A DNA stretch of 64,000 nt from Macrosoma leucophasiata. Lineage: Eukaryota; Arthropoda; Insecta; Lepidoptera; Hedylidae. Made by a program: the position numbers and the translations under genes. The stretch spans positions 8,122,001 to 8,186,000 of the forward strand of contig JAWQUS010000002.1 in the NCBI GenBank assembly GCA_036365455.1, read 5' to 3'. The number at the start of each line of letters is the position of its first letter. Within the stretch, counting starts at the first letter, position 1. This document shows, piece by piece, positions 13,084 through 59,122 of this stretch. The notes under the pieces are model-generated. The model did not search any database. It had not been told where the DNA came from and saw only the letters and a list, made by a program, of their open reading frames with translations.

Positions 13084-13757
13084 TTACCCATCGAACTGGA
13101 TTGAGTCTCTCATCTGGAGATTGCAAAAGTTTCCAGGCAGATTGCCTATGTAAGTGGATCCGAAGTCCGGCCAGAATGTTACCGATGATTCGTCTATCAT
13201 CATGCTGTTTTCGTCAATTTTGAGTAAAGTTAGATCGTGTATTCTTCTTCCAGATGCTAACAGTAGCAAAAGAGCTAGGTGGCGCGATATTTGAAATAGA
13301 TTTTCCTCTAGAATTGTTATACTTTTCCATTCCATCCATTTAATCAGATCTGTGACATCCCAAATTTGCTTTTTACCTGCTGGGGGTTTTGACAACTCAA
13401 TACCTTTAATTATTTGTTTAACAACTGGGCTGTCTGTGATAGAATTTCTAAGAACAGGATCAGCAAAAGTAGCAATTACTGATTTATGTAATTTTATAGT
13501 ACTAGGTGACAATCTCTTGACTCTAAAAAGAAAACTTAAATGTTGTGCTACTGATGCTGCGTCTGGTCTAGCCATGTTTTCCATGGAGCTTGATACGTTT
13601 TCAGTGAAGAATTACGCCAAGCTTTTAGGATTAAGTGGCAGTCTTCTCTAGCCCAGTTCTTCGTTAACAGAGACCACCCTGTACCTTCCAAGCCTCCAAA
13701 CGTAGGTTTAGAAGTTTCGATTGATTCATTGGGGATGTTAGGTAAAGACCACCTCAA
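13084..13757 (-). pseudogene. Tyrosine recombinase, truncated (DIRS-like)
   Basis: Two overlapping frames (13757-13548 and 13584-13084) together cover the N-terminal core-binding part, with LKTYQAPWKTWL and LSPSTIKLHKSVIATF, and the start of the catalytic part, with ASGRRIHDLTLL, which holds the first conserved Arg. The His-x-x-Arg and Tyr that complete the active site are absent because the frame ends next to the mariner insertion. A frameshift lies in the overlap. In an intact element this enzyme inserts the circular DNA intermediate. Confidence 0.7.
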
Positions 13758-15502: not shown

Positions 15503-15531
15503 ATTCCCAAAGCCGCCCTCCTTTGAACTTG

Positions 15532-17169: not shown

Positions 17170-17490
17170 GTTAACCCTTACGGTTCAGGGAATGAACGCG
17201 TACGGTTCATAGGATAAACGCGTACGACTATGATTGGGTCGTACGTCTCATGGAATTAACTCGTACGGCTCATTGATTGGTACGGCTCCCGAAATTTACC
17301 GTTACGGCTCACGAAATTGGCCCGTACGGTTCACGAGATTGGCCCGTACGGCTCACAAAATTGGCCCGTACGGCTCATGAAATTGGCCCGTACGGCTCAC
17401 GAACTCACGAAATTGGCCCGTACGGCTCACAAAATTGGGCCTTACGGCTCGCGGAGTTGTCCCGTACGGTTCGTGAATCCGAGCCGTTCG
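17170..17490. repeat. 22-bp minisatellite, CGTACG-rich
   Basis: About nine head-to-tail units of the form GAAATTGGCCCGTACGGCTC plus AC, tightest at 17290-17460 and degenerate on both sides. One unit is followed by an 8-base partial unit (GAACTCAC). Each unit contains the palindrome CGTACG or a one-base variant. It lies directly upstream of the gag-like region, where a leader or internal promoter would sit. Confidence 0.85.
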
Positions 17491-24075: not shown

Positions 24076-27000
24076 TTATTCAGAAAGAGGCATTTTCTCT
24101 AACACTGCGGCCTGCTCCGGTATAAGAGGTTCTAATGGTTTCTTCCAATGGAACTCTTCCCACGGTAACCTCTCTAACCCTGTTGCCCAGTGATGAATTC
24201 TGCATCGAACATTCACTTCTTCAGTGTTATTGATCTGTAGGAAAAATACATTTGCAACATTAAATTATACGAATTTAATAAAGAATTACTACGGAACCCT
24301 AACCACGTGACTTTAAGATCGTCTCAAGGAGGACTGAGATTTGTCTACGGTAGACATGTGTAAGTAATGTTTGTAATATCATCCGGGTCATAGAGCAACG
24401 CGGCTCACCGGTCGCGGCGGACTGGAGGGGAGTAGCCATAGCGCGTAGTACCGATGCAAAACAGTCTGTCATTTTTTGCGGGGAGAAATGCGTGCGACAC
24501 ACTACGAAAATCGTCTATTACTACGAAACTCACACCTGAATTTAACAAATACAGAAACAATTTCACGCACACATTTAAACATCTAGGCGACGGGAATAGG
24601 CCCATTTGGGCTTGTACTTTGACAGAGGGGAAAGCCTGCATATGGCTACTCCCCTCCGGTGTTGCTCTATGATTCGGGTAATATCACACAAGCGAGCGAT
24701 GCCCGAGCCCGATGCCACATCTAGACGCTCGGTAGCTTGTCAAACCAAGTTCAAGCAAACAGAACCGTTGAGCGGCACCAAGCGTTTGGAGCCACTTTTG
24801 ACTATCATCACACAACTTCAAAATACTTCAGATAAACCTGTCAAATTTATTATTGAGATTTGTCATATATGCACATAAATGTGCTCCAACGATTATTTTT
24901 ATAATAACATCCAAAAACATATATTTTAAGCCCCAAGGCTTCGAAAATAGGAGGGTTGAGAAGTTAATTTTCGGATATTTCATCATCATCATATCAGCCA
25001 TAGGACGTCCACTGCTGAACATAGGCCTCCCCCAATGACCTCCATGCCGACCGATCGGAAGCGACGTGCATCCAGCGGGTACCTGCAGCCCTGACTAGGT
25101 CGTCGGTCCATCTTGCAGGTGGACGTCCTACGCTGCGCTTGCCTATACGTGGTCTCCACTCGAGAACCTTTCTTCCCCAACGGCTATCGGTTCTCCGAGC
25201 TATGTGCCCTGCCCATTGCCACTTTAGCTTGGATATCTGCTTGGCTATGTCGGATATTTACTTAATAAAAAAAATACACGCAACTTCACGCCTGTAATCC
25301 CCGCAGGGCTAGGCAGAGTTAACTGTATGCATTCAAGCATACATGCAAACACCCACGATTCTCCGGTTACGTTTTGGCTCTTGTAACAGGTGGCGAGCCT
25401 GTTGACATGTCCGGGCACATTACCAAACTCGAGGTACTGGGAAATTTCCAGAAAATGGCAAAATCCAATTGAACCAGAGATAAAGGACTTTACATCATTA
25501 TCTCTGATAACCCCCTACTCGGGCATCGACCCCAGGACCTCAGCGTAGTAGTAGTGGCCTGCTACCGTAGGGCTACCGAGGCAATTATCAAAATATAATG
25601 TTTGAAGTTTTTACTTGAATAACTTCAAACATTATATTTTCGATCAGACAAACTAAGTAGCGCCAATATAAAACAGTTGTCTCCATTGGATACATCGACA
25701 CGGTTGCGGTCACTGTACTAACCGCAAATAAGTTTATTGATTATATTTTTAATTTACATTACAGTTACAAAATTTACAGTCTTTTCCTTTACGTGATAAG
25801 AAAAAAAGGAACTAGGTATGCCACAATCGCCACGTTTGGCATGCGAATTGGCGAACGCACTGGAGGCTGCAGTTCATCTCACGTTATTTTATTTACAAAC
25901 ACCTATGGAATTTATTTGAGCGCTATTGGTCGGTTGACTGGCTACATTAGCGGAGGAATTCCCCTCCATTTTCGCGCGGTAGGGTCGTCAATTCAAGACG
26001 CGACGCTAAAACGCCATAGCATAATACATCTAATTCGCTTCTGAATATTTTCGGAGGCTAATTCGCTTCTGAATATTTTCGGAGGTCCGTCGGTCTCCGA
26101 CAACTAGATGGAAAGCGATCGCTACGTCGGAAAAGTGAGGTAACACTTGTTGTTAGTAATCATAATAAAATACAGCCCCTGATATAATGTATCATACTCA
26201 CTTTTACAGTGACATAAAACTCCTTATTCTGCAGTGACAGATCAGGACCATTAATTTCCACTGGAGGCATTTGTATGGTGGATTCTGGCACCACAAAGCC
26301 TGCTTTGCGGAAGGAAGTACGGATATGCCATGGTTGAAGCGTCCAGGGTTCTGTTTTACTCATAGTGACTTGCAGCACCAAGCGTGACAAGCAATCCATT
26401 GTCTGAAACAGAATGATATACATCGAAAACGAAAAGTGTATGTATTACATTTAATTAAATATTGCATATACCTCGTTGTCTCATATTTACTTAATTAAGT
26501 ATGTTATTCTATAACATACAGGGCCAGTACAGTGATATTAAGGCCTATTAATACCCGCGCGTTGTTTACTACCTCTGTGGGTAGGAAAATATACCTCTCG
26601 GGTACTAGAGCGAAATAGCTGGTAGTGTTGGTTCGCTTATTCGGCAAAATAGGTTCCGCTAGTGGTAGAGAATATAATAGGTTGGGGAAAAAGTCTTTTC
26701 GAATTATAGTATGTATGAACTTGTAATAAAATCTCTTTGGCTGTAGTATTTGTATCTGGCTGGTGTTGGTATCATTGAAAGTTAAAATTTTAAAGAACAT
26801 AATTCCAAATTCAAATTAGGCAAATGTGTGATTTTTATTTGTTTTTCGTACTGTCAAGATGAGTGAATCTAATGAAGAAATTCGATACATTTTAAAATTT
26901 TACTACAAAAAAGGTAAAAATGCAACGCAAGCCGCGAAAAAAATTTGCGATGTTTATGGACCTAGTGCAGTGTCTGTGAGAGTAGCACAAATTTGGTTTA

Positions 27001-30000
27001 AGCGTTTTCAATCCGGAAATTTTGATGTCAAAGATGCAACTCGCTCTGGTCGCCCTATTACGGATAAAATGGATGCCATTTTTGAAAAAGTGGAGCAAGA
27101 TCGACATATCAGTAGTTACGACGTAGCTGAAGAACTGAGAATTGATCACAAAACAGTTTTGGCGCATTTGAAAAAAGGTGGGTACAAAAAAAATCTCGAT
27201 ATTTGGGTACCTCACGAGCTCACTGAAAGAAACCTAATGAACGGTGTACTCATTTGTGATTCTTTATTACGACGTAATGAAACCGAATCATTTTTGAAGA
27301 AGCTGATAACTGTTGAGGAAAAGTGGATCACGTACGACAAGAACGTGCGAAAAAGGTCGTGGTCAAAGGCTGGTCAGGCTTCACAGACTGTGGCGAAACC
27401 CGGGTTAACCCGCAATAAGGTGATGTTGTGTGTGCGGTGGGATTGGAAGGGCATTATTCACTATGAGCTATTACCACCAGGCAGGACTATCGATTCTGAA
27501 CTCTACTGCAAACAACTGATGAGATTAAAGAAAGAAGTTGAGAGAAAGCAGCCGGAATTAATCAACAGAAGGGGTGTGGTGTTTCATCATGATAACGCTA
27601 GACCTCATACATCTATAGCCACTCAGCAAAAATTAAGAGGGTTTGGCTGGGAGGTGTTAATGCATCCGCCGTATAGTCCTGACCTTGCACCTTCAGATTT
27701 CCACCTGTTTCGGTCTCTTCAGAATTCTTTATGCAATGTTAGGTTAACATCACGAGAGGACTGCCAAATCCACTTGTCGCGGTATTTTGATGAGAAGTCC
27801 CAAAATTTTTATAGCAATGGGATCATGTCCCTACCTACAAGATGGCTACAAGATGGCAAAAGGTTATCGAACAAATTGGTACATACATACTTTAGTTAAA
27901 TTTAAATGAACTATATTAAAAAATGTTTTGAATTATCTTAAAAAATGCGAAGAAACTTTTTCCCCAACCATCAAGTGGATCAATTAAAAGTCCACGTTGA
28001 CTTTTAATTGATCCACATGTTCCGGTCCAGCCAGCAATTATCTTATCAGTATGATATGTACAGTCAGGCCACTCTCCACTTATCCAAATTCAATCAAATT
28101 TATGAGTTTTTTGGCGGGAAGCTTGAAAGCTGCCTGTGGTGCTCTTATTTTATATCATTTTCTTGGCGCTTGTGTATAGTGAAATAGAATAACAGTGCGA
28201 AAAAATGATCTTTCGGGTTGCCTCCAAAACATCATTGTAAATTGTTCTGGCAAAGTAGCCATTGCTTTACTCGAATTACTGTGACTCTGACTGTCGGACT
28301 CATAAATTGACTGACTCTGACTTTTACGTTGACTAAGCCAGCCAGCAGCCAGTTCCCTGATAGTACGTTATTGTGAAATAATGTAAGTATATTTTTACCC
28401 TCTGTACATAAGGTGAACTGAACAAGATTTCATGTTTGGGCTTGTTTTCATCAACTTTATACTTTGCAATATTTTCAGGGCTTGCATAAACAGCCAGGCC
28501 AGGCAGAAGATAGTCCCTATAAGCTGCGTTTGGACGCACTAGAAGTATATCACCCGTGTCACCCACTCCTGAAAATGTTAGAATACAGCTAGAGTAATCA
28601 CCAATAAAAGTAAAATAAAATTTAAATAACCGGTCCGGTAAAGTGTTTTTCGAGCCACGCGCAGTGTAGGGTTCCGTAGTTTTTTAGGTTTGATTAATGT
28701 ATTGAAAAAATATATATATATTCTATGGAGTTGTTAAAAAATATTGAGTATTACAGTTGGTTGACTATTATTCGCAAATTTGTAAAGCCAACTTAGGTGT
28801 GATAGTTTTCCTTTTAATTTCGTTATATATAGATACTATTGCCATAACGTTTGAATTTCTAACAACAACCGTTTAGTTGGTAGAGGGGGGGACACTTGGA
28901 TTTCGTCATGGCAGATCTGCTAGTGATCTTCTAATATATCTCAGGCACCATTGGTCCCACTCCTTGGAGAAGAGTTGGGAGGCAATGGCTGTGCTGTGCA
29001 TTGCTAAGGCTTTTGACCGGGTCTGGTACAGGTCACTTCTCGCAAAACTCTGAACTCCCCAAGTGTTACAAATGTTCACAGGTAACAGTGACCACTTTCC
29101 ATCTGGTGGCCCGTTTGCTTGTCTGTCAACCTTCAGACATATAAAAATAACTCCAGATGTGAGTCGGCCAAGTCAGTCTTTTATCAAGATGTATGCCAAG
29201 ATATTTTGGCAGAATCGGCACAAGCAATATTCTCTCCATTAAGAATTAGTGGAGGACAAACTCTTTTTCTGAGTGCAAATGGGACTTGTGTGGACTTGGT
29301 TTGGTTAGCCTTCTCCTCCATACCTGACGCCATTTCTCTATTTCAGTCAGGTGCTCTTGGATATTTGTGGATGTTAATTCTGCATTACTGTTTATTGACA
29401 GTAATGCAGTGTCACCTGCATAGGTGGCTGTTATGATATTCATATTTGTTGAAATATTGGCAATAAAAAGGAGATAACGCACTGGTTCCAGTATGCCACC
29501 TTGGGGTACACCTGACCGAATATTGTAGAGATCTGAAGTGTCATTATTGTATTTGATTATTGCTTTTCATTAGGGCAAAGAAAGAGTGTGGTAGGTTATT
29601 TTTAATCTTGAACAGAATGAACAGAAGTCAGAAACTCCCGACTGATATCTAAGAAGACAACAGTACTGTTTATGTTCTAACGCACTGCTGATAATGTCCA
29701 CCAGTATATGGACCTGCTCTGTAGTGCCGTGCTTTTGTCTAAAGTCAAATTGGTGAACAGGTGACAGTATGTCATCGAGGTAGAGTAGCAATCTGTTTAA
29801 GACAATTTTCTGTAAAAGTTTTCCATTCAGAGGTAGTAGACAAATTGGTCTGTATGATGAAGTTTTATCTGGTGGTTTACCAGGTTTAAGTATCATAACG
29901 ACCTGGGCAAGTTTCCATTGACATGGAAAATGAGACAGCCTCAGGCAGGCATTGAAGAGAATTATGAGGAATTGCCCATGGTACATCTACTTAGTCAGAA

Positions 30001-38284: not shown

Positions 38285-41200
38285 ATGGATGATGAATCCA
38301 GTTTGGATTTACAGGTAAGTTCTGTCAGATGAGGTTATACAGTGGTCCATTAGTTGTATATAAAGCAATAAATCTATATTTTTCTCAGAAGTGCTTATCA
38401 GAGGGTGCAATGGATACGGATGAGGGACCGCTGATCAATGAGAACTCGAACGGGCTATCGCATTTGTTGACGGAGGGGGAGTTCGGAAGCGTGGACGCGG
38501 CGGTGGTGGACGAGTCGTCGGCGTCGAACCAAGGTTTTCTGAATGCGGTCGAGTTTTCAGCGGGTAGCGTGGGAGATTACTTGGAGAACAACAGCGATGC
38601 GTTCGACACGGGGACGTTTGATGTGGGCGACAACGCGGTCACCTTCCCTAGCGATTCTCTGAATAACGTGCTCTCCGACGGCGACTCGCGACTTAGTGAT
38701 ACCATGTATAAAAACACCACCTCTGATACTGATGGTGATTTTGCAGAAGCTCAAAAAGCTCCGCTGGACACTGACTGTGAGCGTGAAAACGCCAGTGAAA
38801 TGTCCAACGATGCTGGGCTGTCGATGCAATCGGATGTTCAGGTTAAATCAGAGGCTGCTGAGGAGAGCAACAGTGCTGGTGTTGCGACACAACCTGACAA
38901 CACAGAAGAAGTCACAAATGATACCGATTGTAACTCTGTGCAAGATGTCGAAATGAAACCTGTTGTCAAGGTATGTTAAGTATTATCTCTATCAATGATC
39001 AAAAATCAACATTACAAACAAAATTAGACAACACATTATGCAAAAGATAACCCAACATCTCCCTTTGTAATAGGCCTTTTCATCATAGGACAAGCACAAG
39101 CTTAGCCGCCATATTGAAATGATGGTAATTCAAAACATTCATACTGTTTTTATCAACAATTGCTGGGCAAGGAATATTATCTCCACAAATAAATAAATTA
39201 CTGGAAAAAATATAAAAAAAAACAATGTAACATTATAAACAATAAACATATTTTGTGAAAAAAAACATCCAGTGGTTTTAAGGTGCTACTTTATTTATTT
39301 CTTCAAAAATGAATTGATTTTAATATTTATTTTCACATTAAGTGGGCACATTTGTACAGTTGTTTGATGAAAAGGTCTATAGATGAACCTTCCATAAACA
39401 ATTGATTGACCTGACTAAATTTTTAAGATGGATGCAAAAATATATTAATAGTGGAAGGACCAGGAGTCTGACACCAGGCTGTTAAACAAGGTCATTTGTA
39501 AATATATGTCTTGACATATAAAACATTGTTTTAGGAGGAAGAAGTGAATGAAGATAAAAAATGTGATATTTCTAATACTAATGCATCAATCAAAGCTGAA
39601 CCAGAACTGGCTGATGAAACACTAGCAGAGATAAAACCGGTAATTGAAAAATCTGTGGAAGAAAAATCTACAGCAGAAAAATCTGCAGAAGAAAAACCTG
39701 CCAATGAAGAAAAAGTACTTTTATAGTTTACAATACTATTTAGATTTCTATACATGTAGTGTTGATGATTACTAAATTATTGCTCTTTTTCAGCCTTCTA
39801 TAATATGCAAGGAAGAAAAAATTGAAACTGAGGAACAGGAACCTGACCAAAAGATTAATTTAATAAAAGTGAAATCTGAGGTAAGAACAAGTTTATTCAA
39901 CATTTATAGGTATAGGTGGATCTGAGATTGCAGGGCATGCATTGTGCATGTCTTAATATTTGTGTTTTTTTTTTGCAAGTAAATACTTGCATCACTATAA
40001 CACCTACACTTTATGGAAGCATGCAAAAAGCCCAATATGTGGCACATGTCTTGCAGTCTGTATCCCCATTAATTTATTGCATCTGTAATGTTACTCTGAT
40101 CTCTATCTAGTCTTTTATCTAAGCTTGAGAGAAATGGTAAATAAAAAAGGTTACAACCTTTGCTTTCAGTTTTTTTTCTATCTAATATACAGTGGATGTT
40201 TATTTATTTATCTGTTGATGAGATAAACAGTTCTTAATATTTTCAAATTATCGATTTGCGATACAAAATGTGTGTCTATGATTTATTTATCAGGGTTGTT
40301 TGAATAAGAGTATTCTTCCTACAGTCTGCTTTTATAATTTACTCTGAAAAATATTAAGCACAAGAATCTATTTACTATTTAAGTGCTTAACTTTTGTAAT
40401 TAGATAATGATTATTTTTGTTAAGTTAAATCTCTCCATGTAGTTTTCTGGGATAGTTGTCAAAATATAGAAGAGAAGCCTATGAAAAAAAAAAAATTGTG
40501 TAACTGTAAATTCAATCTAACATTGGTGGATGTTAGATTGACTAACAATTTGGAACAAATTGGAATTAAAAGTCAAAAAATTATTGTGTATACAAAAAAG
40601 ACTGATTTACTACCTAATTAAAAACAAACAAAGAAAAGTAATGTATTTAGTAAACTATGAAATAAAAGAAATCTTGATTACTAAAACGGTAAAATGATTG
40701 TTTGATAGTATAATTAATTAGTAAAGATGGAAAATAGATTCTTCTTTCTTAATCAATTATAAAAACAGAAATAGGATATTCTTTGCTATCAAACTTTTTT
40801 CAAATTATGAGAGAATTATCTTTATATTATCTTATAACCAGTTTTAAGGTAGATACTAATAAATGAACACGCATTTAGCGCCACTTTTAGTTGTTTTTTT
40901 AAATACAGAAGATACATACTTTGAGAGGTATGGCATGTGTGTAAGGACTTGGTATTTTGACACTCCACACTTTCTGCTTACTCTGTAAGGGACTTTGCGT
41001 AAATAAAAATACACACATAGGTACTTACTTTAAATGTATGTATCTTTATGCTGACTCCCTAAGATACATACATACCTAGATACATATATACTTTAAAAAA
41101 ATATGTTTATCCATTAAAAAAGACTCCAAGTCATTGTTATATCATTGATTTTATTTTGCAATTAATTATTCATTATTCTTGACTCATGTGGTGTAGATTT

Positions 41201-44200
41201 AGGCAGAAATTATGTACTTAATAAAATCTTATATTTTTAACTAAAAAAATACAATTTCATTTTATTTTTGTACTCATGCACTCTGGATATGTGAGTATCT
41301 AATGTCACATTGTAAATTTATGTCATATCCATATATAAAAAAATGTCATGTATATGTGTAAAAAAATGATTTCCTCTGCAATAATTGTACTTATCAATAT
41401 TAACATGTGCAGGTGGGGTATGCAGAAGAAACTGAAGTGGTATCTGAAGATGAACTGCCAGCTGTTCAGAAACCAAGTGTAAAGGATGCTGAGAATGTTT
41501 CCGACGATGAATTGCCTGGACCGAAACCTGCAGAACTTCCGGCTGATACTGAGGTTACATTATAATTTTAAAATATTAAGATTCTATACATCTCATAATG
41601 TTATACTTCCTAGTTTCATGTGACGTAAATTTAGGCTGTCTTACGTAAAATATCAGATAATTTTATGATTTAAAACTCTACAGTTACATTATACCTTTGT
41701 TCATCCTTGACTTGCCTGGGCAGCTTTGGTGTAAATCACCAGAACTATAACAAACAACAATACACGTTATTGTACACCAGACATAAAATACAGAAGAGAG
41801 AACTTAACACAGTACAATAGGTGGCCTTATCGTTGTATGAGAGATTTCTACTTTCGATTTAGATCTAGATCTAGATAACCTTTGGGTAGAGGGAAAGATG
41901 TGATAAAAAATAAGATATAATTAGATGTAAAAAAAACATGGAAAGTATTTAAATATTTTAAACCAATTAAATAAGTAGTGGTTTTCTTTATCTATGCAAA
42001 CTTTATTTTTATTCAGTATGAAATTGTGTTTTTAAGACAACTGTTATTATAAAGTTGATTGGTGTAGGTTGTGTCAGAGGATGAGCTGCCTTCTTCAAAG
42101 AAAGAAGCTAAAGAAAATCGTAAACGGAAACCAAACGAAGAGGGAGATGGATATGATCCCGGATCGCCAACATCAGAGAGTGAACAATCTCTTAAAAAAC
42201 AAGCTATTGCAAAGGTAATTTTTCGTTTGGAAAAAGTTGTCACATAGTAAAGTGCATAAATATATGTTTATTGGCATTTATAAATGTCAAAATATTTGTG
42301 TTAAATATTAATGTCTTGTGTTGTTTGGACTTATTAAAACTCAGGGCAAAGATCTTCCTCTGAGCTATAAAATAACCCATTACAGGTCAATGTTGAGTTT
42401 TTAAGTTTACACTGATTCAACATGGAACACAACACTTTGAAAAAAACTTGCTTTTTTTTATCATACCTACTAGCTGTCTAGTGAACTTCGAATAGCTTTA
42501 GCGGCATGATATACTTTATGATCTAATATAAATTATGTACTATTATGTACCAAATACAAAAAAAAAACCGGTCGAGTTGTTTCGGAAGAGTGCGATACCG
42601 TGATAGTTACGATAATTTTTATATAATAGCTTGTCAATGTATTTTCCAATAAATATTATTGTTGAAAAGTGGATAATCTGTACTCTTGTTTGCAGAATGG
42701 CGAAAGCAAGCCTGTGCCTGCCGAAAAAAGATTGTCGATAGATGAGAAGCCCAAGAAGAAAACCCTTCCAGAATTGGACAAGTACTGGAAGGTTGTGAAT
42801 GATGATCCAACTGATTTCACTGGTTGGACATATTTGCTACAATATGTTGACCAAGAGGTGAGATTTTTATTTTGATAAAGTTTTAGTTTTCTTGAGTTAT
42901 ACCAGGCCTGGTTCACTCCGCACGGTCGCCGTGGTCTCCCACAGATCCAAGTAGGAGCGCTATTATTCTTGGACCGCGTGTCCCACCCGATATCACCCCT
43001 GTCCGGATATTTGACCAACCTGAACGCATCTACACTTCGCTGCATACGTCAATGCACGCGCTAAGGCTGCATTCGTGTTATCACCACTTCATTGTTTATT
43101 GAACAAATGTAGTAAACAATCGCCGCTATGTTACGCGTCGCCAGTCTTTTCCCACGCTAATAACAAAACAATCCATAGCTTACAGGTAATCCAAAATCGA
43201 TTACGATTTTTTACGTTGACGCATAGGCGCGCCTTGGTACGTACGTAACATAAATCTTCATGTCTATGCTAACTTGCCTACAATCCGGCAGATCACGAAA
43301 AGAGCATCCATAAGATATTTTGGCACCGCAAATCATCACCTGAACCCGCTCGTCATAGCGGCCGCGATTCACATTCATTTTGATCGTGCCAAAAGAAGAC
43401 GTCCAAATTGAAATCTTGGGCGGTACGTACCAAGGCACGTAGAGATTCCGACGATGAGGCCAAGTTAGCCATCGCCGCGATGAATTTCTCATACAACGTT
43501 CCAATAACACCGTCGTCACCAGCCCCGACGTGGTCGTTATTCCGGTTACTACCAACCTATGACTACAGCAAAAGTTGCACCGCCCCAATCGCATATGTTT
43601 TATGTGTGTCCCCCACACCGTTCTAAGCAGAGGATCAGACCTGTCAAGGAAGACCCCCTTAGGCAGTTGTGTTAAACTGTTAATCTATTTAACCTGAAAG
43701 CCCGTTGCGCTTCGCCAATTACCCGGCTAGTGCCGCCTCGAGACAAGCCGCTTACATAAGTCCATTCAAATAAAAAAATGCGACGTACCTTTACCTGTAA
43801 TCTAGATTATTTCTATAAAATTTTCCATTTAATTTTTCAATGTATTATCGGCGGCCGCGTCAGCTCTCGCGCCACTTATGTCTAGCAATCGGCTCCAGTG
43901 TTCTGCTTCGCCCGCTTCCCCGCAAGGCCCCTTGCGAGGATCGTTGCTCTATGCAAGTTTGTTCGTTGTTCATGTGTGAAGGGTTATTGTTATAGGTCGC
44001 GCCAGGTAAAAAGAACGCTGGCGGTCAAGCTGCGCGTCATGTGTTTTTATTTCATTTTATGTTATTCTATGTAATATAGTTTTCAATCTGCCTACCAATA
44101 CACGAAACCTCAAGCGAAAGCTAGATCAAAAATAAACCAATAGGGCTAGTACTTTCGTGCGCGAGTGTACCGATGCGCGAACACATCCCTTCTACTTTCT

Positions 44201-47200
44201 TCCAGCGTTCTTTTTACGTGGCGCGACCTATACACTATGGTAATCTAGCAAATGACCTGTAGGTTGTTTTACTTTAAATAGGAATCATAGGACATTTCGT
44301 GAATGTCGATTAATGTGATGAACCTTTTTGCTAGTCTTATTGCTTTATGAAGCAATGGGAACTGATTTTTCATGTTGATTGGCAAGGGCCAACTGATAAT
44401 TTTATCATGTTATCTAAGTATTTAAACAAACTGTTCAATTGTGTCTATTAATATTGTAATTTTTCTGCAGAGTGAAGTAGAAGCGGCTCGCGAGGCCTAC
44501 GATGCGTTTTTGTCGCACTACCCGTACTGCTATGGCTACTGGCGGAAATATGCCGACTATGAAAAACGTAAAGGAAGTAAAAAGAAGTGCCTCGAGGTGA
44601 GTACCTCTATTGTATATCCACATTATTTATTATTTAACATTGTGGTAAGTTCATATAATACCAAAAATAATGTGAATGAATGACTTTTATTAAAATGTGC
44701 TGTAGCATAATTGTTTTTATTTTAGTCATAACTGGTATTTTGCAATTATTTTTTTTCCCAACAGTGCATCGAGGTCTACGTTCGTAAGGCAAAGCCGTCA
44801 GTCGTTCCCACCGGAGAGTCGTATTACCTTCGTATAGTTTCCTTTCTTGTGGTTCATTACTTATGGTGTACATTTTATATACTAGTGCATATATTTACGA
44901 TGATTTGTACTCGCATGATGTATAATTATAATTTATCATGTATATTATTTAAGTACGTGATTGATTGGTGGATTTATTTAAGTGTTATGTTAACTAATCC
45001 GTGTTAGCGTGGGGCGCAACAGGTGTGCGTATATAGTTGAGTGGCGCGAAGAGGCTCCGCCGGGCGGCGCCACCGTCATCGTCGCCGTGCGAACAGGTGT
45101 AATATGCCCAACAACCATTCAATTTTATATTAAAACGAATGCCAGCGAAATGTTGACGCTCACTTGTCTGCCGCTCAACCTCTCGCTTCATTCGTGCAAA
45201 ATTACATGAGACATTTTATAATGCTATACAATATTCCCTTGCTTCATAGCGCAGTCGCGGGCGCGGCGGCGCTCTGACTCCCGTCGGACTAGGTTGATCA
45301 CGTCTCTGTGTTTCAGGTGTTGGAAAGAGGGCTCAAAGCCATCCCATTGTCAGTTGACCTTTGGATACATTACCTCAATCACATTAAGGCCACACGTACC
45401 GAAGAGCACATTTACATCAGGTCGCAATACGAGAGGGCCATAGGTGAGGAATGCAATTACTTCCTACATGCAGTTTCGTAGCTAGGGGTTAGCATCAGGT
45501 TTGCAAACTTCATGGGGACTTGCAGATCCTTACTCGCTGTTGTTCCTCACTAGTTTTGATGTGATTCAATATTCGAGACCCGCTGCTCGACCGCCTAACT
45601 CAAAAATTTTTCATTTTCTTCTATGAATAAATTGAAAAATTTGATGATTCACGTATCGGTTAAATATTATTATTAAATTGGTATTTATTAATACCTATTG
45701 AATTATTATTATAAGTCATTCTCTCTAGGTAGCTTATAACCCGACAATGCAAAAGTGTCCTTGTAGACCAATTTGAAATAAATGATTTGAATTTTGAATT
45801 TTCAATCTCGTTTATTTTGACCTTTCATGCCACCACTGAAAGCAATAACGATAGTATGATCATCGTTATCGCTTTAATGCCGTCTACAAAAGTAATAACG
45901 GTCAGTTATCCCTATTGCTCACATAGGTGGTACGGTACAAATGCAATTCAGTTAAGTGGTCGAGTCGCTAGGCCCTCATAACCTTAGCTATGCTATGACA
46001 CTTATGATATGTGTATGTCGCAGGGATTTCCCTTATAGGGAGGAGATCAGATTTTTTTACGAAATCCCTAGGGTTACCACGTAATCATAGTAGATGTCCT
46101 TCTGAGCACTAGAGAGAGCGAGAGAGATGTATGTCTCGATTATTATTCGGCAGTATCCACTTTTTTGATATTTCACTAGAAACGTGAAACGACATATCAT
46201 CACTAACGTATTTTAGTTAGAAGACATTGTAAATAAGAATATTAAACATCTGCCGTGATTTTGTGAAATCTCTGATATCCTGATTCTCCTGCGACATATT
46301 ATATACATAATTATTCCATAAAGTTGTGAATTAAACTTATGATAAACACTTAACGATCGTTCTACAGATGCTTGTGGACTGGAATTTCGTTCAGATCGCG
46401 TTTGGGAATCTTACATCAAGTGGGAGGCTGAAAATGGATCGGCTCTCAACGTCACCAACATTTACGATCGGCTACTAGCAACACCAACACTGGGTTACAC
46501 TTCGCATTTCGACAAGTTAGTAGATTTATTTTCTAAGGGTGTACTGTTCTGAGATTAATAATATTTGTTACAATGTGAGTGTAAAATAGGGTTGTTGAGG
46601 AAGTGATTATGAGGAAGAGGAGGAGGAAGCAGATGACATAAAAATAATAGCAACTCTTGAAACGTTCCACTGCTGGGCACGAGTCTCTTCCCTTCTTGAG
46701 GGGAGTTCTGGAGCTTACTCCACCACGCTGCTCCAATGCGGGTTGGTGGAGTTACTTGCAAGGGTTAGTGGCCAACCCGCTGTCGGATGTTTTCAAACCG
46801 CCCATAAAGCCTCCGACAAGGTTTAACGACTGCTATCTGTCGAAAGCAACCGGGACCGTCGGCGTCCTGCTCTCCGAAGCACGAAAATGCGCATTTTAAT
46901 TTGCCACTAGTGGTCACCCGTCACACACCCGACCGCACCCGTATCGCTTAATCGAGTAGATCGCTTGCGTTCTACACCAGCCGGGAGGCCTTGCGCGCTA
47001 CAGAAAGATGAGAAGAGGATGATACGAAGATATAAATACTAGCGGACCCAACCTAAAATCCGCTGTCCTGTCTCTATCTACTTAACTAAGTATATACGAG
47101 GGTGGATCCAAAAGTTCGTGGCCCAAGCTACAAGGAGATATGACATCTTTTTAAATTTACCGTCATTTGTTACTATGTCTCATATTGATTTATTGTGCGC

Positions 47201-50200
47201 AGTTTCATTCCGATACTCCTCAATATACATTTTCTGTGATTATTTGTTTGAAGCATTCTGACGCGATTTTCAATAATGGAGAAAATTGAACATCGTGCAG
47301 TCATTAAGTTCCTCAATAAAAAAGGCCTGTCACCAAAAGACATCCATCAAGATATGGTGGGCGGCCTGGCACCGTGCTGCGGCGTGTGCGTTGCCATCGA
47401 TACGCGACGCGCATGCGCAACAAAATTCCTCATAAATTCCTCATAAATTCCTCTTAAATTTTGAGGAAGCGGTAGCGGAAAAGGATTTTTTAATTTTAAT
47501 TTTTGAGAATGCGGAAACGGTTGAGGTATATTGCGGAACCAATATATTGCGGAACTTCCTCATTATGAGGAAGAGGAAGAGGAATCCTCAGCAACCCTTG
47601 TGTAAACCACTTTTTTCTGGGATATGATATTATAATAAATGAATAAATTTGTTTTGAAATGCCGTCCACTAAGGAAGCTTATTTTAAGAATCTGCGTACG
47701 TACTATGTCCTTTTGTTGCGAACCAAACTGAATCGTTACTCCCTAATGCTTTGTTTCGTTTCTTCATACGCGTATTATATATAATATACAAATGAAACGA
47801 AAAGTTAGAAGACAAATTGAATCACAATTTGTCCATTCATAAAAGTCGTATATTGTTCATCAGTGCATAAAGTTTCGCCATATAAAGCGAGATGGTGTTG
47901 TGTGGCTAGTTTTCAGGAACACGTAATGTCGGAGCCGGTGGCGGGCGTGGTGTCACGCGCCGAGCTCGTGAAGCTGCGGGCCGAGGTGCGCGACGCGGCC
48001 GGCGCCCAGCCGCAACTCGACCTGCCGCCCGGCGAGGACGAGCCCCTCGATCATGTTGTGAGTACTGCAGTCTGTTTACCGCCTCCCTGCAGTAACATAC
48101 CGCAGCCGCAACTCGACCTGTCGCCCTGTGAGGACGAGTCGCTCGACCACGTCGTTAACTTACGACCTGATGTTATTGAGCCTAGTCCTTCTAACATTAT
48201 CAAACAGGAGCAAATCCGGGCAGAGTGGACACAAGCCTCGGTTATCTTAATCCAGTTCAACCATGGACAATTTTTACTTACTTAATATTTTATTATTCAC
48301 TTGGATGAAGAAATTAAAATTCTGCATCCGCCACTAAATATTAGACTGTTTGAAGCTTTCGACGTTTAATTCATGACATCCGTGTCCAAATATATGTTAT
48401 ACTTTCTTTCCCCTTCTAGTCAAGAAGGGGATCATCAGACTCTCACTCCATTGATTTTCAACTGCGTTGTACTAGAACAGATTATTAACCTTCAAAAATA
48501 AGCGATAAAAATAATCGTTTTAAACATTTTCACCGACCGCACTTCTCTACTTCACCGCATCTTGATTACAGGCATCAGAGGAAGAAGCGCAGTCAATAAA
48601 GGAGCGAGTTATAGCGGCGCGCAGAAAACTACACAAGAATACCGGCGAAGAAGTCGCTGCTCGATGGACTTTCGAGGAAGGGGTAAGTTAAGTTACCTTC
48701 ACATTTATATCAACAAATATGTGTCTATTTTGTTTACTAGATCTATGATTAATGATTGGTTTCCGTTTCGCTACCTATAAGATACCCTCTCCGTTATAAT
48801 GGAGAGTGATAAAATGCTGATTCTAATCATTCCATTACGAAACCACCGAAAAAACTTGAATATCCATCAGTCAAAGGTTATGGTACGGTTTATTTGTGAC
48901 GTGATGTATGTGATAAAACCATTTGCGAAATTGACTTTCGGCTAGTGTATTTCAGTGTTTTGTGCCTTGGATTTGTTAAATTTAATTGGATTTTAAAGGG
49001 ATAAGTGTGAATATTATTATATAAAATGCTATTATTTCTTGTTCTATTGCTAAGTTAATAATAATTTGCCTGTTCACATGTTAGCATGTAAGTTGTTCAT
49101 GTAAACAGAAGCCTTAGAGAGGTAGGTACACTTAGCAACATAATAGTTTCATTTTTCAGATGGAGATAGAGATAAATTGATGCAGATCTAACAGCATATA
49201 AAGGGAGCAATAATTACAAGGCTTTTCTGGTATCTTTTTTTTAGATTATGAGTTTGGAATGGTTGAAAGAAAAGTAAGTACACAATACATAAATATACAT
49301 ATCACAGTACATTAAGTGATAATAATACATTGCTTTTTTGGTTATTGGAAACCTCTAACGCATTTTAGTTTTGTTTTTTTTTGTTATGTATAAGGAAGGA
49401 ATAAATCTGATACCAGCACATTAAATGCGCTATAATCACGCTGCTTAATTTGTGATCGAAAAGTATACAATGTTTGACTTAGTGTAATATACGCAAGAAA
49501 AATTTGTAAAAATAGTTTTATTTCAGCGAGTGTTACTCGCGAAAACCTAAGCACACTTCATGATTGTAAGTGTTTGTATAATTGGAATGGATTTGATTTT
49601 TTTTTGTTATTACAATGCGGCTATATTATTACAATGAAATTGCATTATTGCAATGAGGCAGTTATTCGATATTTCTCATCCAATAAATATGAAACAATCA
49701 ACAGTATGAAAAAATCTTGAATGTTCCTATTCTAGAAATAGATAGGGGACTTTAAAGATGAGCTTACAAGAATAATTTCGCTTCACGTGCGTGTGAAGTT
49801 ATGCCACCCCACTTGACCGCAAGAACACGGCTCAACATTACTTATAAGTTCATTGTTGAGCATCACTTGCGTCAAGTTTTGTCAGTCACACGATCAAGAG
49901 GAGACAAATTGCCTATAAATATTGTATTGTCCTTATGTGTCAAAGTACGACAAAAACCCTATCAAAATATTCCTTCCTGCCACTATCAAAAATTAGACTA
50001 CACTACTACCTACATTAAATAAAAAATAAATTAAATAATATAAATAACGTCAGAGTGCAAATTATGACAGAGTGTAATTGTCATAAATTAATGCATCTAT
50101 CACGAGTAGGGTGACGTCACAGGCGATTTGGAGACCATTCGACGCGTGAAAATATGTGCTCTTAAATATTCTGTATCTTCTATAATCTATATCTTTGTCA

Positions 50201-53200: not shown

Positions 53201-56200
53201 TAAAGTAAAGGAGATGTTGCAAAAATGTATGGACCTCCGGCCATGTATTGTAAACAATATCATTAACAGGCAAAATCAATATAAAAACTATTATTACTGC
53301 ATGTTTTCACTTATTGAGCTTTGTTTGCAGTCACCTAATAATATTTGCAGTTAGAATTGCAACTCAAACCAACATGGGGAATATGGCGGGCGATGATGAT
53401 TTGACATTTTCATTTTTTAAAATGTTTTGATTATATAGTACTTGGAGAAAAAAAAAAATATCTAAATAATATCGAAATCGATTTTTATGTGTTAATACTT
53501 AGCACTTAAACTAATCGATTTCCAATTTAAAGTAGCGTCGGCTGTATCGCCGCCATGTTGAATGTGGTTGAAAATTATAAAATCGTTTGAATTAAACTCT
53601 AAAATATATACTTGAATAAATTAATTGTATTTTTTTCGGATTCTTCTTCAGTTTACCCTTTTTTTGAGGACGTGTACGAACTAGAGCCGAGCTCGCTACA
53701 TCTCCTTTGTATGGAAGACAGGTTAGGTAATATTTATCTTGGAAACATTCTATATTTACAGAATGCAATTTGGTTGAATGGTAAGTTTTGATTAAGTTTA
53801 TCAAGTGACGCCGACCGCGACGGGATGGAAGAAAAAATAATTGGTGTTTACTGATGTTACTATTCAACGAAGTTCTACATCAAGCTTTTTATGGTGTATT
53901 CGAAATGAATTGTGTTAAATGTTATATTTTGACGGCTATTTTTGTGATAAAATTAATGCTTTAAAATTTAAATTAATTAAACGCTTGTGGTATCTAGCTG
54001 TAGCGTAAGCTTAAGCCAATCAGTAATCTTCAGTGTAACATAATGGATAAAATGTTTTTCATGTTATATAATTAAGTGAATCAAATATTATATCAACTGT
54101 CGTAATTTTCTCTTTTTTTTAATAATAATTTCGTATTTAGATCAAAAGACCGTATTTCCACGTGAAACCATTGGAACGATGTCAGCTGAAGAATTGGAAA
54201 TCTTACTTGGAGTGGGAGAAACAGCATGGTTCATTTAAACGGGCGCTCGTCTTACACGAAAGATGTCTCATCGCATGTGCACTGTATGAAGAATTCTGGA
54301 TGCGGGTATGTACAACACTTCACAAACTTTTAAGAATATGAAACACGATAATAGATATTATATTATAATTATAAATTATATTAATTATTACCTTGAAAGA
54401 TAAATATACACTTTCTGTTTAAGGGAATATATTTTAAATAAATGTTTACTATCATATTATTTTTCTATCTAATAAAGAATTTATACAAAATACTTCCCGC
54501 AAACCCACGGTACGCCAGTTACGTATTGTCCCATGTACAAGCTGTGAGCCTGTTGACGTTCTCTATTATCTAATTGGAGTGACATTGGGAAACCTCAGAA
54601 AAATATAAAAATCTCAATGACATTTATTTGCCAACCCAGGGATCGATAACACGATCACAGCGTGGAAGCAGTCGTCTGCTACCATTAGACTACAAAGGCA
54701 GTTAAAAAACTAATCGAAGACCATCTTTCAGCTCATAAAGTTTCTGGAAGAACGTTTGGATACTAACCCTGAGCTGGTGGCTGTCGAGCGTGAAGTATTG
54801 GAACGAGCCTGCACCGTGCATCACCTGGACAAGCCGGAGCTGCACCTGCACTGGGCACACTTCGAGGAGGCGCAGGGCAATCCGGCCAAAGCGGCGGAGA
54901 TACTAGATAGGATTGAGAAAACATGCCCTAGTCTCATGCAGATACAGTACAGGTTAGTGTTTTTCCAGCTTCTCTGGATTGGACTGGATTCCTTTTACGT
55001 TTTGTATATCTTGTGGGGAAAAGACTGAAAGACAAAATAAGAACTACAACAATAAGGAAACACACAAGAACAAAAGATGTCACAATAACCATCAAAAGCT
55101 GAAGTGGAAATGGGCAGGACATACTATCAGGGGAATAGATAAGTGGTCGAAATTAGTGATGAACTGGTACACATGCAACAGGAAAAGAAAACGAGGCAGA
55201 CCACTCAGGTGATGGGTTGACGAAATTAAAGCAGTGGCAGGCGGTACTTGGACATCGCTAGCCAGAGAAAGAGAAACGTGGAGTCAGGAGGAGGAGGCCT
55301 TTGCTATAGAAAAGCTCACAGATATGACAACTAATAAAACAACGAAATAACTAAACCGATTGTGAAATTATCTGATAGAAGGCTAATAAATAAAAAATAT
55401 AAATATCTTGTGAGTCAATAGATGATGATAGATGCTGGGATGAGATTCTCTAACATAATTTGTTTGTGTGTGGTTTTGAAGGTGTAAGAAGTGACATTTA
55501 TGGTACTTGCACTAAAGTCCAAGAATAAATTAATGTAAAAGCTTGTATATTTCAATTTAGATGACTTTGTTCAGGTATGACTGTTCGGATTTGAGTTTTC
55601 TTCTTCTTCTTCGTGAACATAAAAATTGTACACACATATTCTAGATAAACAAATAAGATACTTTTTATTATAATATAAAACACATTCAAATATAATCGTG
55701 GTGTTTTTACTGTCACGAAGTGGCAATCAAGCATAACTCTAATGTTCTATTGATGGTAAGTAGTACTCTAGCCTATATACATCAAATCAGATATTAATAT
55801 GTAGATGCGTTGCCACCCCTAAGGCCTTAGCTGTTATGCCTCTGTGCCGGAAATTGCAGACCTACAGTTAAGGCGTTTACATTACTAAAGATCAATTTTG
55901 GTTGTCAACAGACGCGTAAACTTAGAGCGGCGGCGCGGTGACTACGAGAAATGCTCGCAACTGTACGAGGGCTACATAGCGGCCGCCAAAAACAAGGCCA
56001 TCGCCTCCGCGCTCTCCGTCAAGTACGCGCGGTTCCTCTTCCACGTGCGTCGCGACCCGCCCGGCGCTCGGAAAATAATGGACGAAGCCATCGCTAAAGA
56101 CCCCCTGAACGCCAGACTGCATATGCAGAGGGTCGACCTCGCGCTGCATACGCCTGATACACCATTTGAAGTTTTGGAAGGTATGATTATACGGCAGCAG

Positions 56201-58841
56201 TAAAGTATGTGTATTTATTATACAAATATTTCTTCTTGTCTACAAGTGTCTTTGTCTGCCCGTCCTTTTTAAGTGTATAAAGACGAAGTTAAGTTTTTCA
56301 CTAGACATATTTATTGGCGATCGATCAGGGACTAAAAGCGTTCTTTTCTTACGGCATAACTTTTAAAAAGACATCGAGGCAATTTACTTCCTTAATAAAT
56401 ATTCATTGGGCACATTAACAATAGCAAACTTAAGCAATAACAAACTTGTTAAAGTACTGGTTAAGCAAGAGTCATACCATTTAAAATTGTTGAATGACGT
56501 CACTACTTTAACTCTTAACTATAACCGCCCAAGATACGCTGCTTGAAGTTGTTATTATAAATTATCTCTATGTATGTATCTTCACCCCAAGTCCCTTACA
56601 GGGTGGACAGCGAGTGTTTTTCGCCATATATTCCGGTCCTTACACCTCCTGCGCTTCGTCTACATTCATCATTATCTTCATACGTATGAAAGCCGATTCT
56701 CAAGACTCTTGACACCACCCTCAAACAGTACTCGACCTATTTGGCCAAGGTCCTCCTTGTCCTGGGTATTTGCGACCATTTCATTTATTGTAATTAGCGG
56801 TCAAATTTTTCACTTGATACATAAATATAACTGTGCCAATACTTCGCTGGTGCAACTCATTCAAATGTTTCTGTTATTGTTAAATATTTTATAAAAACTA
56901 TAACTGTGGTGCAAACGAACTTAAATACGCGATGTGTTGCAGAGCTGGTGTGCTCGTACGAGAAGCAGGACGGCGCGGAGGCGGAGACGAGCGCGGCGCT
57001 CGCGTGGCGGCGGCGCGAGCTGGCCGAGGAGATGGGGGGCGCCGCCGCCGCGCGCGCCGCCCTCACGCACGCCCGCGCGCTCGCCCGCCACCTGCGCAAG
57101 CGCCAGCGCAAGGACAAGCACGACCCGCCGCCGCCGCCCCAAAGGTACGCTCCCTACGCCACTGTCTCTACTGCACACTCCACACGCCACTCGAGCGCTC
57201 GCCCGCCACCTGCGCAAGGACAAGCACGACCCGCCGCCGCCGCCCCAAAGGTACGCTCCCTACGCCACTGTCTCTACTGCACACTCCACACGCCACTCGA
57301 GCGCTCGCCCGCCACCTGCGCAAGGACAAGCACGACCCGCCGCCGCCGCCCCAAAGGTACGCTCCCTACGCCACTGTCTCTACTGCACACTCCACACGCC
57401 ACTCGAGCGCTCGCCCGCCACCTGCGCAAGGACAAGCACGACCCGCCGCCGCCGCCCCAAAGGTACGCTCGCTTCGCCACTGCTCTACTGCACACTCCAC
57501 ACGCCACTCGAGCGCTCGCCCGCCACCTGCGCAAGGACAAGCACGACCCGCCGCCGCCGCCCCAAAGGTACGCTCGCTTCGCCACTGCTCTACTGCACAC
57601 TCCACACGCCACTCGAGCGCTCGCCCGCCACCTGCGCAAGGACAAGCACGACCCGCCGCCGCCGCCCCAAAGGTATGCTCTCCCTACGCCACTGTCTCTA
57701 CTGCACACTCCACACGCCACTCGAGCGCTCGCCCGCCACCTGCGCAAGGACAAGTACGACCCGCCGCCGCCGCCCCAAAGGTACGCTCGCTTCGCCACTG
57801 CTCTATTGCACACTCCACACGCCACTCGAGCGCTCGCCCGCCACCTGTGCAAGGACAAGTACGACCCGCCGCCGCCGCCCCAAAGGTACGCTCGCTTCGC
57901 CACTGCTCTATTGCACACTCCACACGCCACTCGAGCGCTCGCCCGCCACCTGTGCAAGGACAAGTACGACCCGCCGCCGCCGCCCCAAAGGTACGCTCGC
58001 TTCGCCACTGCTCTACTGCACACTCCACACGCCATTCGAGCGCTCGCCCGCCACCTGTGTAATGGCCAGCGCAACGCAAGTACAAGCATGACCCGCCGCC
58101 GCCTCAAGGATATGCTCCGTACACCACTGTCTTTACGACACACAACACACAACCGGTGCGCACAACACAGCATAAGCCCTTAACACAACCATACGCACGT
58201 TATGAGCGAGATTCACGGATCCCACTACGACTTTTTTTGACTTGGAGTAGAACTTTCCATGTTTATTTTGTTTCACAATATTTAACTCTTATTTTAGTTC
58301 ACCCAAAGTCAAAATGTTTATTAACGCACCCGCACGTTACCTATCTTTGTACCTTACCTAATTGATATAAACCAGTTACAGTCCACTTTTATATAATTTT
58401 ATTCCGGAGTAGTCACCCCCAGCTTTATTGATTAGGGACTACACCCCAACATCATCAACAAGTCAAAGTAAAATCGTGGTGCGGTCAATGTTGTGTGAAT
58501 CTCGCCCTTAGGTTCCGACTGCCTCTACGCACGGCCGGACGCAGCCTCACTATACACTATAGGCTCTCTTTTCGAGCTTTTCATTAACTTGTATCTATTT
58601 ATCGTGCAGTCAATCCACCGAGGTGAAAAAGAAAGAGGGGACCACGGCGTCAGCCAGCGCGACGCCGGCGACGGGCGGCAACAGCGCCTACTACCAGCCG
58701 CCGGCCGGCGCCGCGGCCCCGCACTCGTACGACCAGTCGTACGCGCAGCCCTACCAGCCGCCCTGGGGCTACCAGCAGCCGCCCGGGCCCTACCAGCACC
58801 ACCCGCACCCCTGGGGTACTGGGTACCCCAACTACTACTGA
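38285..58841 (+). CDS. PRPF39: Pre-mRNA processing factor 39 (PRPF39/Prp39)
   Basis: Seventeen exons: 38285-38314, 38389-38970, 39535-39714, 39794-39880, 41413-41553, 42068-42214, 42696-42857, 44471-44596, 45317-45443, 46368-46515, 47910-48057, 48572-48682, 54141-54305, 54732-54952, 55912-56180, 56943-57144, 58610-58841 (TGA). Phases close to 1025 residues; vertebrate PRPF39 is about 670. Residues 1-389 form an acidic, disordered N-terminal region with three VSxDELP motifs (exons 5-6). HAT repeats start in exon 7 ([20 protein letters not shown]) and continue through exon 10. A second block begins with [19 protein letters not shown] (exons 12-13) and runs to exon 16. The tail is Pro/Tyr-rich ([17 protein letters not shown]). 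The protein is nuclear and U1 snRNP-associated; it helps U1 engage 5' splice sites. Exon 11 is entered through TAG at 47907-47909, because the CAG seven bases downstream breaks the frame. The exon 16 donor is tandemly amplified. The 3' exons are much more GC-rich than the introns. Confidence 0.93.
39881..41412. other. PRPF39 intron 4
   Basis: AT-rich intron with no recognised element apart from the 11-bp hairpin at 40513-40540. No nested gene is seen. Confidence 0.6.
40513..40540. repeat. 11-bp hairpin in PRPF39 intron 4
   Basis: CAATCTAACAT, a 6-base loop, then the exact inverse. Confidence 0.8.
42858..44470. other. PRPF39 intron 7, foldback-rich
   Basis: Contains a 242-bp MITE (43991-44232). 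A separate weak foldback pairs CCTTGGTACGTAC near 43230 with GTACGTACCAAGG near 43422. Antisense open frames at 42656-43045 and 43211-43618 have no recognisable motif and are probably transposon-derived or chance. Confidence 0.5.
43991..44232. mobile_element. MITE, 242 bp, in PRPF39 intron 7
   Basis: Arms 43991-44021 and 44202-44232 begin TATAGGTCGCGCCAGGTAAA and match with one mismatch in 31. Non-coding interior. Confidence 0.8.
47096..47358 (+). mobile_element. Truncated mariner 5' end, second lineage
   Basis: A terminal-repeat-like start (ACGAGGGTGGATCCAAAAGT) and, at 47276, an ATG opening a frame that reads [20 protein letters not shown] then KDIHQDMV, the N-terminal DNA-binding part of a mariner transposase. 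It is cut off abruptly at 47358. It differs from the mariners at 12003 and 26681. It lies in PRPF39 intron 10. Confidence 0.7.
48103..48156 (+). repeat. Diverged duplicate of PRPF39 exon 11 tail
   Basis: 54 bases matching 48007-48060 (exon 11 3' end plus the first donor bases) at about 46 of 54 positions. The frame is kept ([18 protein letters not shown] against [18 protein letters not shown]). The original donor GTGAGT corresponds to GTTAAC here, so the copy lacks a good splice donor. The frame from exon 11 stays open through it to a stop at about 48283. Confidence 0.8.
50331..51430 (+). pseudogene. Possible nested gene remnant in PRPF39 intron 12
   Basis: Splice-like signals bracket three short open blocks: an acceptor near 50330 and donor near 50443; acceptor TTTTTGTAG at 50543 and donor GTAAGT at about 50679; acceptor TTTTCAG at 50765. 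The second block is Ser-rich ([20 protein letters not shown]). Further on, 51235-51430 is open and reads [15 protein letters not shown], then [15 protein letters not shown], ending in TAA. I could not join the blocks in one frame without a stop, and I do not recognise the protein. It may be a decayed gene or transposon. Confidence 0.3.
52976..53032. repeat. 15-bp perfect hairpin in PRPF39 intron 12
   Basis: GTGACCACATGGGCA (52976-52990) and its exact inverse (53018-53032), with a 27-base loop. Confidence 0.85.
54490..54703 (-). mobile_element. Decayed SINE copy in PRPF39 intron 13
   Basis: Weakly alignable to the SINE at 25268-25590: GCCTGTTGACGTT block, TTGGGAAACCTCAGAAAAAT block, and the tRNA-like end TCTGCTACCATTAGACTAC. 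Confidence 0.55.
55083..55330 (+). mobile_element. LINE ORF2 C-terminus remnant in PRPF39 intron 14
   Basis: Plus-strand frame with [18 protein letters not shown] and [16 protein letters not shown], interrupted by one in-frame TGA, then [14 protein letters not shown]. It is homologous in layout to the minus-strand LINE end at 24994-25247 but from a different and older lineage. Confidence 0.7.
56181..56942. other. PRPF39 intron 15
   Basis: AT-rich; nothing recognised. The segment near 56580-56780 is open on the plus strand but lacks any motif. Confidence 0.5.
57075..58115 (+). repeat. Tandem array of exon 16 end plus 5' splice site
   Basis: Units of 105-108 bp run head to tail. Each has the coding end of exon 16 ([16 protein letters not shown]) followed by CCCCAAAG and a GT donor, then about 45 bp of intron start. 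GT donors fall at 57145, 57251, 57357, 57463, 57568, 57673, 57781, 57886 and 57991 (GTACGC, or GTATGC at 57673). A tenth, degenerate unit ends CTCAAGGATATG near 58110 with GT changed to GA. The first unit and the tenth keep a 12-base CGCCAGCGCAAG-type insertion (57101-57112) that the eight inner units lack. Confidence 0.95.
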
Positions 58842-59122
58842 CGGGCCCAACAACGCCAAGGACATAACTCATGACGTGTCGACTACACGTCGGGTGTATT
58901 TTGAACATTTTATTTTTCACCACCGTTTTAGATAGCTCATAGTGTCCGACAATGAAGTACAGTTATGTATTTGAATGACGGCGATTGCCCATCGGATTTT
59001 ATCTGAATTGTGTAATTAATTTTTAAGTCTTTTTACAGTACGCTAATAATGGATATAAGAATGTAAATATCGAATGACGATTAAAGGGATTCACATAATT
59101 AATTTGTGTTTTACTTGCATGT

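Follow-up and report, generated by a model that had tools for sequence, protein, structure and literature searches.

Minisatellites with multiple splice donor sites have a precedent in the human gene IFI6 (6-16/G1P3; Turri, Cuin and Porter 1995, as cited in PMC4526556 and PMC2572611), where two downstream repeat units are reported to be used as splice donor sites, resulting in three mRNA species (PMC4526556). A simpler case of competing donors is intron 4 of DOK7, which has two unequal donors 11 nt apart; in the account of this system, SRSF1 is described as promoting the use of intron-proximal donors and hnRNP A1 that of intron-distal ones (PMC5585400). Here, we analysed a stretch of 64,000 nt from Macrosoma leucophasiata (Lepidoptera; Hedylidae; assembly GCA_036365455.1, contig JAWQUS010000002.1, positions 8,122,001 to 8,186,000), hereafter called the window, in which the end of exon 16 of the gene PRPF39 is repeated in tandem together with its 5' splice site. 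Literature searches, covering titles and the beginnings of abstracts of the papers listed, found no report of tandem donors in PRPF39. With a probability of roughly two in three, we read the array as a GC-rich minisatellite that arose by duplication of the exon 16/intron 16 boundary and is tolerated through the use of donor 1, its further donors probably being used at a low level. Among the three options put forward in the initial annotation of this DNA (a self-regulatory sensor, a source of length-variant isoforms, or a minisatellite that captured a splice site), the third is best supported by the anatomy of the array, the relationships of its copies and a second duplication at exon 11.

The coding part of the gene was rebuilt by hand as a model of 17 exons, which, when spliced at donor 1, yields an ordinary PRPF39 protein of 1025 residues. 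Mouse PRPF39 (6g70) matches residues 412-1008 of the predicted protein with an E value of 2.7e-134, so that homology in the HAT domain is evident, and yeast Prp39 (5zwn_U) matches it with an E value of 7.3e-26. Among the matches listed, PRPF39 of Anticarsia gemmatalis is 82% identical over residues 600-1025; the top-scoring relatives of the gene are species which we take to be moths and butterflies. Because the rebuilt model matches known PRPF39 proteins, the gene label, the exon numbering and the frame of the donors as first annotated are right. An acceptor-like site with a short open stretch is seen within intron 8 (44765-44830); it was left out of the model because exons 8 and 9 already join in frame. 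The features of the gene and of the array are the following:

38285 to 58841, plus strand: coding part of PRPF39, 17 exons, read by hand
38285-38314, 38389-38970, 39535-39714, 39794-39880, 41413-41553, 42068-42214, plus strand: exons 1-6, read by hand
42696-42857, 44471-44596, 45317-45443, 46368-46515, 47910-48057, 48572-48682, plus strand: exons 7-12, read by hand
54141-54305, 54732-54952, 55912-56180, plus strand: exons 13-15, read by hand
56943 to 57144, plus strand: exon 16, 202 nt, 79% GC, 3' end CCCCAAAG, then donor 1
57145 to 57990, plus strand: eight tandem units, each of intron start and copied exon end, with donors 2-9
57991 to 58107, plus strand: intron start of donor 9, then a decayed tenth exon-end copy that retains a 12-nt segment of exon 16 and has GA in place of GT
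58610 to 58841, plus strand: exon 17, final coding exon of the model, encoding a tail rich in Tyr, Pro and Gln

The claim that nine donors, each consisting of CCCCAAAG followed by GT, lie in units of 105-108 bp at the end of exon 16 was found to be exact to the base. The string CCCCAAAGGT occurs exactly nine times, with the last exonic bases at 57144, 57250, 57356, 57462, 57567, 57672, 57780, 57885 and 57990, and the spacings from donor to donor are 106, 106, 106, 105, 105, 108, 105 and 105. Tandem Repeats Finder (TRF) describes the array as 9.0 copies of a 105-bp unit with 97% matches and a score of 1731, far above chance. Within each unit, some 59 nt copied from the exon end lead up to the 5' splice site, after which come 46-49 nt of intron start, and the nine-base donor (a slash marks the exon/intron boundary) is AAG/GTACGC in eight of the nine, with AAG/GTATGC at donor 6. 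Nine units of this tandem repeat thus carry a splice donor at a copied exon end, and a tenth, diverged copy downstream of donor 9 has lost it, its GT now being GA (AAGGATATGC). The 12-nt segment of exon 16 that is present in copy 10 is deleted in copies 2-9. Since these copies share a deletion that is absent from both exon 16 and copy 10, they go back to one founder, and copy 10 is older. In the intron part, copies 1-3 have one type in common, from which copy 6 differs by a substitution and a 2-nt insertion, while copies 4, 5, 7, 8 and 9 have a second type that is shorter by 1 nt. The unit lengths vary by indels of 1 and 2 nt, which fits what would be expected without a constraint on frame.

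From these observations we infer the following course. The array would have started with a tandem duplication straddling the exon 16/intron 16 boundary, so that each unit carries the exon end, the 5' splice site and the intron start. Duplications within a very GC-rich exon would spoil the protein and be purged, whereas those straddling its 3' end could persist, since splicing from the first donor to the acceptor downstream would leave the protein in its ancestral form. The units would then have spread and been made uniform by slippage or unequal exchange, with a single old copy, its donor lost, surviving at the distal end. The main mRNA product most likely comes from donor 1; donors 2 and 3 would swap the C-terminal tail, and donors 4-9 would lengthen the linker in front of it. 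Some use of the further donors is likely by analogy with human IFI6, since they are nearly identical to the first.

Assemblies are well known to go wrong where tandem units are nearly identical, and the true copy number could differ if the array were an artefact or a haplotype expansion. We consider this very unlikely, as the units bear distinct variants and a decayed end copy, the array sequence has a single match, its own locus, in the 616-Mb assembly of 61 contigs (a search whose counts are lower bounds), and the PRPF39 model of a second species, Scirpophaga incertulas, contains a similar array.

Evidence that the boundary duplication is not an isolated event in this gene came from a comparison in which, for 16 exons, the terminal 150 nt were matched against the intron that follows, with 30 shuffled introns per exon as a control. 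Only the ends of exon 11 (score 65 versus a maximum of 20) and exon 16 (90 versus a maximum of 34) scored above the shuffled introns, and the other 14 exon ends showed no similarity to the following intron above the shuffles. Exons 11 and 16 are the two GC-richest of the 16 tested (0.70 and 0.79), a coincidence expected in 1 of 120 cases if duplication were independent of GC content. The two copies at exon 11 are:

48007 to 48059, plus strand: end of exon 11 with its donor, GTT/GTGAGT
48103 to 48155, plus strand: diverged copy of the exon 11 end in intron 11, 96 nt downstream and in frame, with GTC/GTTAAC

Including the GT, 45 of 53 positions are identical between them. The donor-like site of the intron 11 copy is decayed, with a pairing energy to U1 of +0.5 kcal/mol. 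When the whole window was scanned for local direct repeats of at least 35 nt lying within 400 nt of each other (12-nt seeds), 10 families were obtained, three of them in PRPF39; two of these three are the array itself, the exon 11 duplication is the only other one in the gene, and all three straddle a donor. The exon 11 motif occurred twice in none of 54 proteins from relatives, which says little because 37 of them have no match to the motif. Run on 20 arbitrarily chosen 10-kb stretches, TRF returned seven rows with a period of 40 or more, of which one was GC-rich (L008 9705-9898) and, by eye, does not resemble an exon end.

Relatives were taken as the 120 best of 830 matches, with roughly 8000 candidates sharing most words scored per protein search, and C-termini were compared in the first 54 of the 120 listed (49 named to species and 5 not, with several isoforms of one species). 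In this comparison with related species, suggested as a check in the initial annotation, a long tandem array at the same exon 16 end is present in one of the 54 C-termini, that of the PRPF39 model ACJJTC_003404 of Scirpophaga incertulas (P0054), while the other models that reach the junction have no array-like insert there. One model (P0053) stops before the exon 16/17 junction. Since splicing at donor 1 hides an array from a protein model, its absence in other species cannot be counted. No further protein had a long match to an array when the donor-9 isoform (23 matches) or the Scirpophaga array (36 matches) was used as query, and in the last 45% of the 120 listed proteins repeated 10-mers were found only in P0054, apart from one short repeat in P0118. 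Cydia splendana X1 (P0051) has a frame-shifted tail at the exon 16/17 junction, and Papilio xuthus X1 (P0039) has a short insert there, both possibly due to alternative donor use.

The Scirpophaga array, known here from the protein model alone, is run through by the model, which lacks exon 17. It contains seven joints between exon end and intron start, at residues 570, 683, 754, 824, 895, 1008 and 1125 and in three reading frames, which are consistent with AG/GTACC as read by eye from inferred nucleotides. Although both arrays lie at the same exon 16 end of the same gene, the Scirpophaga units are larger, mixed and start further upstream in the exon, whereas those of the window start at RALARHL; the Scirpophaga array also contains an exon-to-exon joint (SWPRSG) and shows no joint in common with the window. 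As the breakpoints differ, the Scirpophaga array is most likely independent of that in the window. Relatedness analyses do not settle the origin. In an initial 44-row tree, the PRPF39 protein of the window had its highest identity with that of Scirpophaga, at 81% over 559 columns, and the tree placed neither of them. After the badly modelled parts of P0054 had been masked, the highest identity of the window protein was with Colias (89% over 622 columns), Scirpophaga joined three crambids in a weakly supported group (66/42), and a sister relationship of the window protein and Scirpophaga was not rejected (p-AU 0.436, AU standing for approximately unbiased). Over 488 aligned residues in 23 rows, Scirpophaga was nearest to Diatraea (440), with the window protein in 11th place (433). 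Taken together, the exon 11 duplication and the array in Scirpophaga point to recurrent duplication.

The predicted products were then considered. Donors 4-9 had been said to be in frame with exon 17, adding 106, 141, 176, 212, 247 and 282 residues relative to donor 1, and donors 2 and 3 to be out of frame; recomputation gave the same result, with seven of the nine donors in frame. That the frame of exon 16 stays open through the array, up to a read-through stop at 58183, is also correct, but does not argue for coding. The nine units are stop-free in each of the three forward frames, and, when one unit was shuffled, every frame was free of stops in 610 of 5000 dinucleotide shuffles (12%) and in 924 of 5000 simple shuffles. 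The openness is thus compositional, and coding selection on the array, not being shown by it, was dropped as a candidate. The stop codon lies in exon 17. Whichever of the nine donors is chosen, translation would end at 58841, 58867 or 58626, within this exon or beyond it; donors 2 and 3, which lead to the stops at 58867 and 58626 respectively, would give an altered C-terminus. Because the model has no coding exon after exon 17, no donor is expected to cause decay dependent on a downstream junction. A stop more than about 50 nt ahead of a later exon junction, as in a poison exon, is produced by none of the nine in this model of coding exons, an intron in the 3' untranslated region not having been sought.

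An array of this kind might be a working source of length-variant PRPF39, with donors 4-9 inserting 106-282 residues after the helical domain and ahead of the tail. Seven of the nine donors are in frame with no in-frame stop, downstream repeat units are reported as donors in IFI6, and the position of the junction would suit an insertion. In an AlphaFold2 model of the Anticarsia protein (P0001), made with a 20-row alignment of relatives without the window protein, the last helix spans residues 894-920, the end of exon 16 falls at about residue 926, just past this helix and at the start of the low-confidence tail, and confidence is below 50 from residue 927. The mean confidence of this model is low (54.5), with residues 731-920 averaging 82 or more per ten-residue block. 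As far as the model goes, an array insert would thus probably extend a linker rather than disrupt the fold. However, the openness is found in all frames and is compositional, donors 2 and 3, the closest of the additional ones, are out of frame, and both exon-derived changes in copies 2-9 alter amino acids. The translated array, modelled alone as a single sequence, gave no confident fold (mean predicted local distance difference test score, pLDDT, 49.5), and among the relatives compared array peptides occur only in the Scirpophaga model, which runs through the array without exon 17. We therefore regard working length variants as unlikely. Still less probable is normal splicing from donor 9, with the array exonic throughout. 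The preference of SRSF1 for the intron-proximal of competing donors (PMC5585400) and the open frame would agree with it, but exon 16 would grow from 202 to 1048 nt, and 282 additional residues are seen in no relative's model with a normal tail.

Donor strength was estimated as the duplex energy with the 5' end of U1. Eight array donors gave -5.6 kcal/mol and donor 6 gave -5.7, and 12 of the 15 other PRPF39 donors are stronger. As the array donors are weak for this gene and nearly identical, the choice among them must depend on position and on bound proteins. The predicted probability of being unpaired was 0.000136-0.00234 for the array donors versus 0.000115-0.0729 for the 15 others, and the GC content of the flanks 66-69% versus 29-62%. 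The 276-nt stretch 57085-57360, about the first two units, folds worse than 200 of 200 shuffles (z +3.49). Because the flanks are GC-rich and this stretch folds worse than its shuffles, no designed structure is apparent, and RNA structure hiding or exposing the donors was rejected as a candidate.

The weak pairing bears on the proposal of an autoregulatory sensor, in which the levels of PRPF39 and U1 would set how many units are included and hence PRPF39 output or its C-terminus. Human PrpF39 is described as a homodimer that binds U1C (PMC5648754), loss of Arabidopsis PRP39a is reported to change the use of cryptic 5' splice sites (PMC9813592), and an array recurs at the same junction in Scirpophaga. 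Against this, the donors are near-identical copies and nothing beyond the overall identity of the units marks their special retention; no donor places a stop before a later junction, so that no decay switch is expected; the stretch 57085-57360 is less structured than all of its 200 shuffles; and the same kind of duplication at exon 11, with its decayed site at +0.5 kcal/mol, argues for mutation pressure. The sequence lends self-regulation no specific support, the identity of the gene, the weak donors and the recurrence being its sole, indirect support, and we judge a sensor to be highly improbable. An equally slight chance is given to the broader proposal that lepidopteran PRPF39 repeatedly evolves weak tandem donors and that the array counts U1/PRPF39 activity; were this true, the level of PRPF39 would set the number of units spliced in and thereby tune the protein's own C-terminal linker and tail.

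Several points weigh against a tolerated minisatellite, the reading that we prefer. Three 106-bp spacings are followed only by multiples of three, which could hint at selection for frame, although the chance of this pattern, counted post hoc, is about 1 in 27 if length classes are free. In copies 2-9, the exon-derived part is less variable than the intron-derived part, which could mean weak constraint: 2 of 59 columns vary in the former (both C to T and, in the exon frame, Arg to Cys and His to Tyr) versus 7 of 48 in the latter (five substitutions and two indels, counted by eye), with a Fisher p of 0.075, or of 0.24 for substitutions alone (2 versus 5). Unit variation thus does not demonstrate coding constraint and leaves room for a little. 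Recurrence at the same exon end in Scirpophaga could also reflect selection. Moreover, the donors were read from DNA sequence, and their use is predicted.

Outside PRPF39, the window contains a mariner-like transposase with a frame open for 355 codons (26832-27899; Pfam Transposase_1 and HTH_48) and a second mariner-like copy, split across separate frames, on the minus strand (11930-12921). A retroelement with reverse transcriptase and RNase H matches lies at 13084-16547 on the minus strand; the neighbouring frame at 13084-13611 looks by eye like a tyrosine recombinase and has no Pfam match. Another tandem array, with a 22-bp unit (GTACGGCTCACGAAATTGGCCC), is found at 17199-17469.

Nine nearly identical 5' splice sites before one acceptor, in the gene of a factor for splice-site choice, constitute a natural experiment, in which junction counts would test directly how position alone sets donor choice. 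The recurrence, at exon 11 and in Scirpophaga, suggests a simple rule by which duplications in GC-rich exons survive when they straddle the exon end, giving genes spare splice sites. As in DOK7, several donors precede one acceptor, and bound proteins, strength and distance influence the choice among them, but the two DOK7 sites are unequal and 11 nt apart, whereas the nine of PRPF39 are nearly identical and about 106 nt apart. With IFI6, the PRPF39 array shares a minisatellite carrying multiple splice donors. The IFI6 units are short (presumably 12 bp), in contrast to the PRPF39 units of 105-108 bp, each of which is a copied exon end plus intron start. Donor use is reported for IFI6, whereas the PRPF39 array is read from DNA and its donors 2 and 3 shift the frame. 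Unlike IFI6, PRPF39 itself encodes a U1-associated splicing factor.

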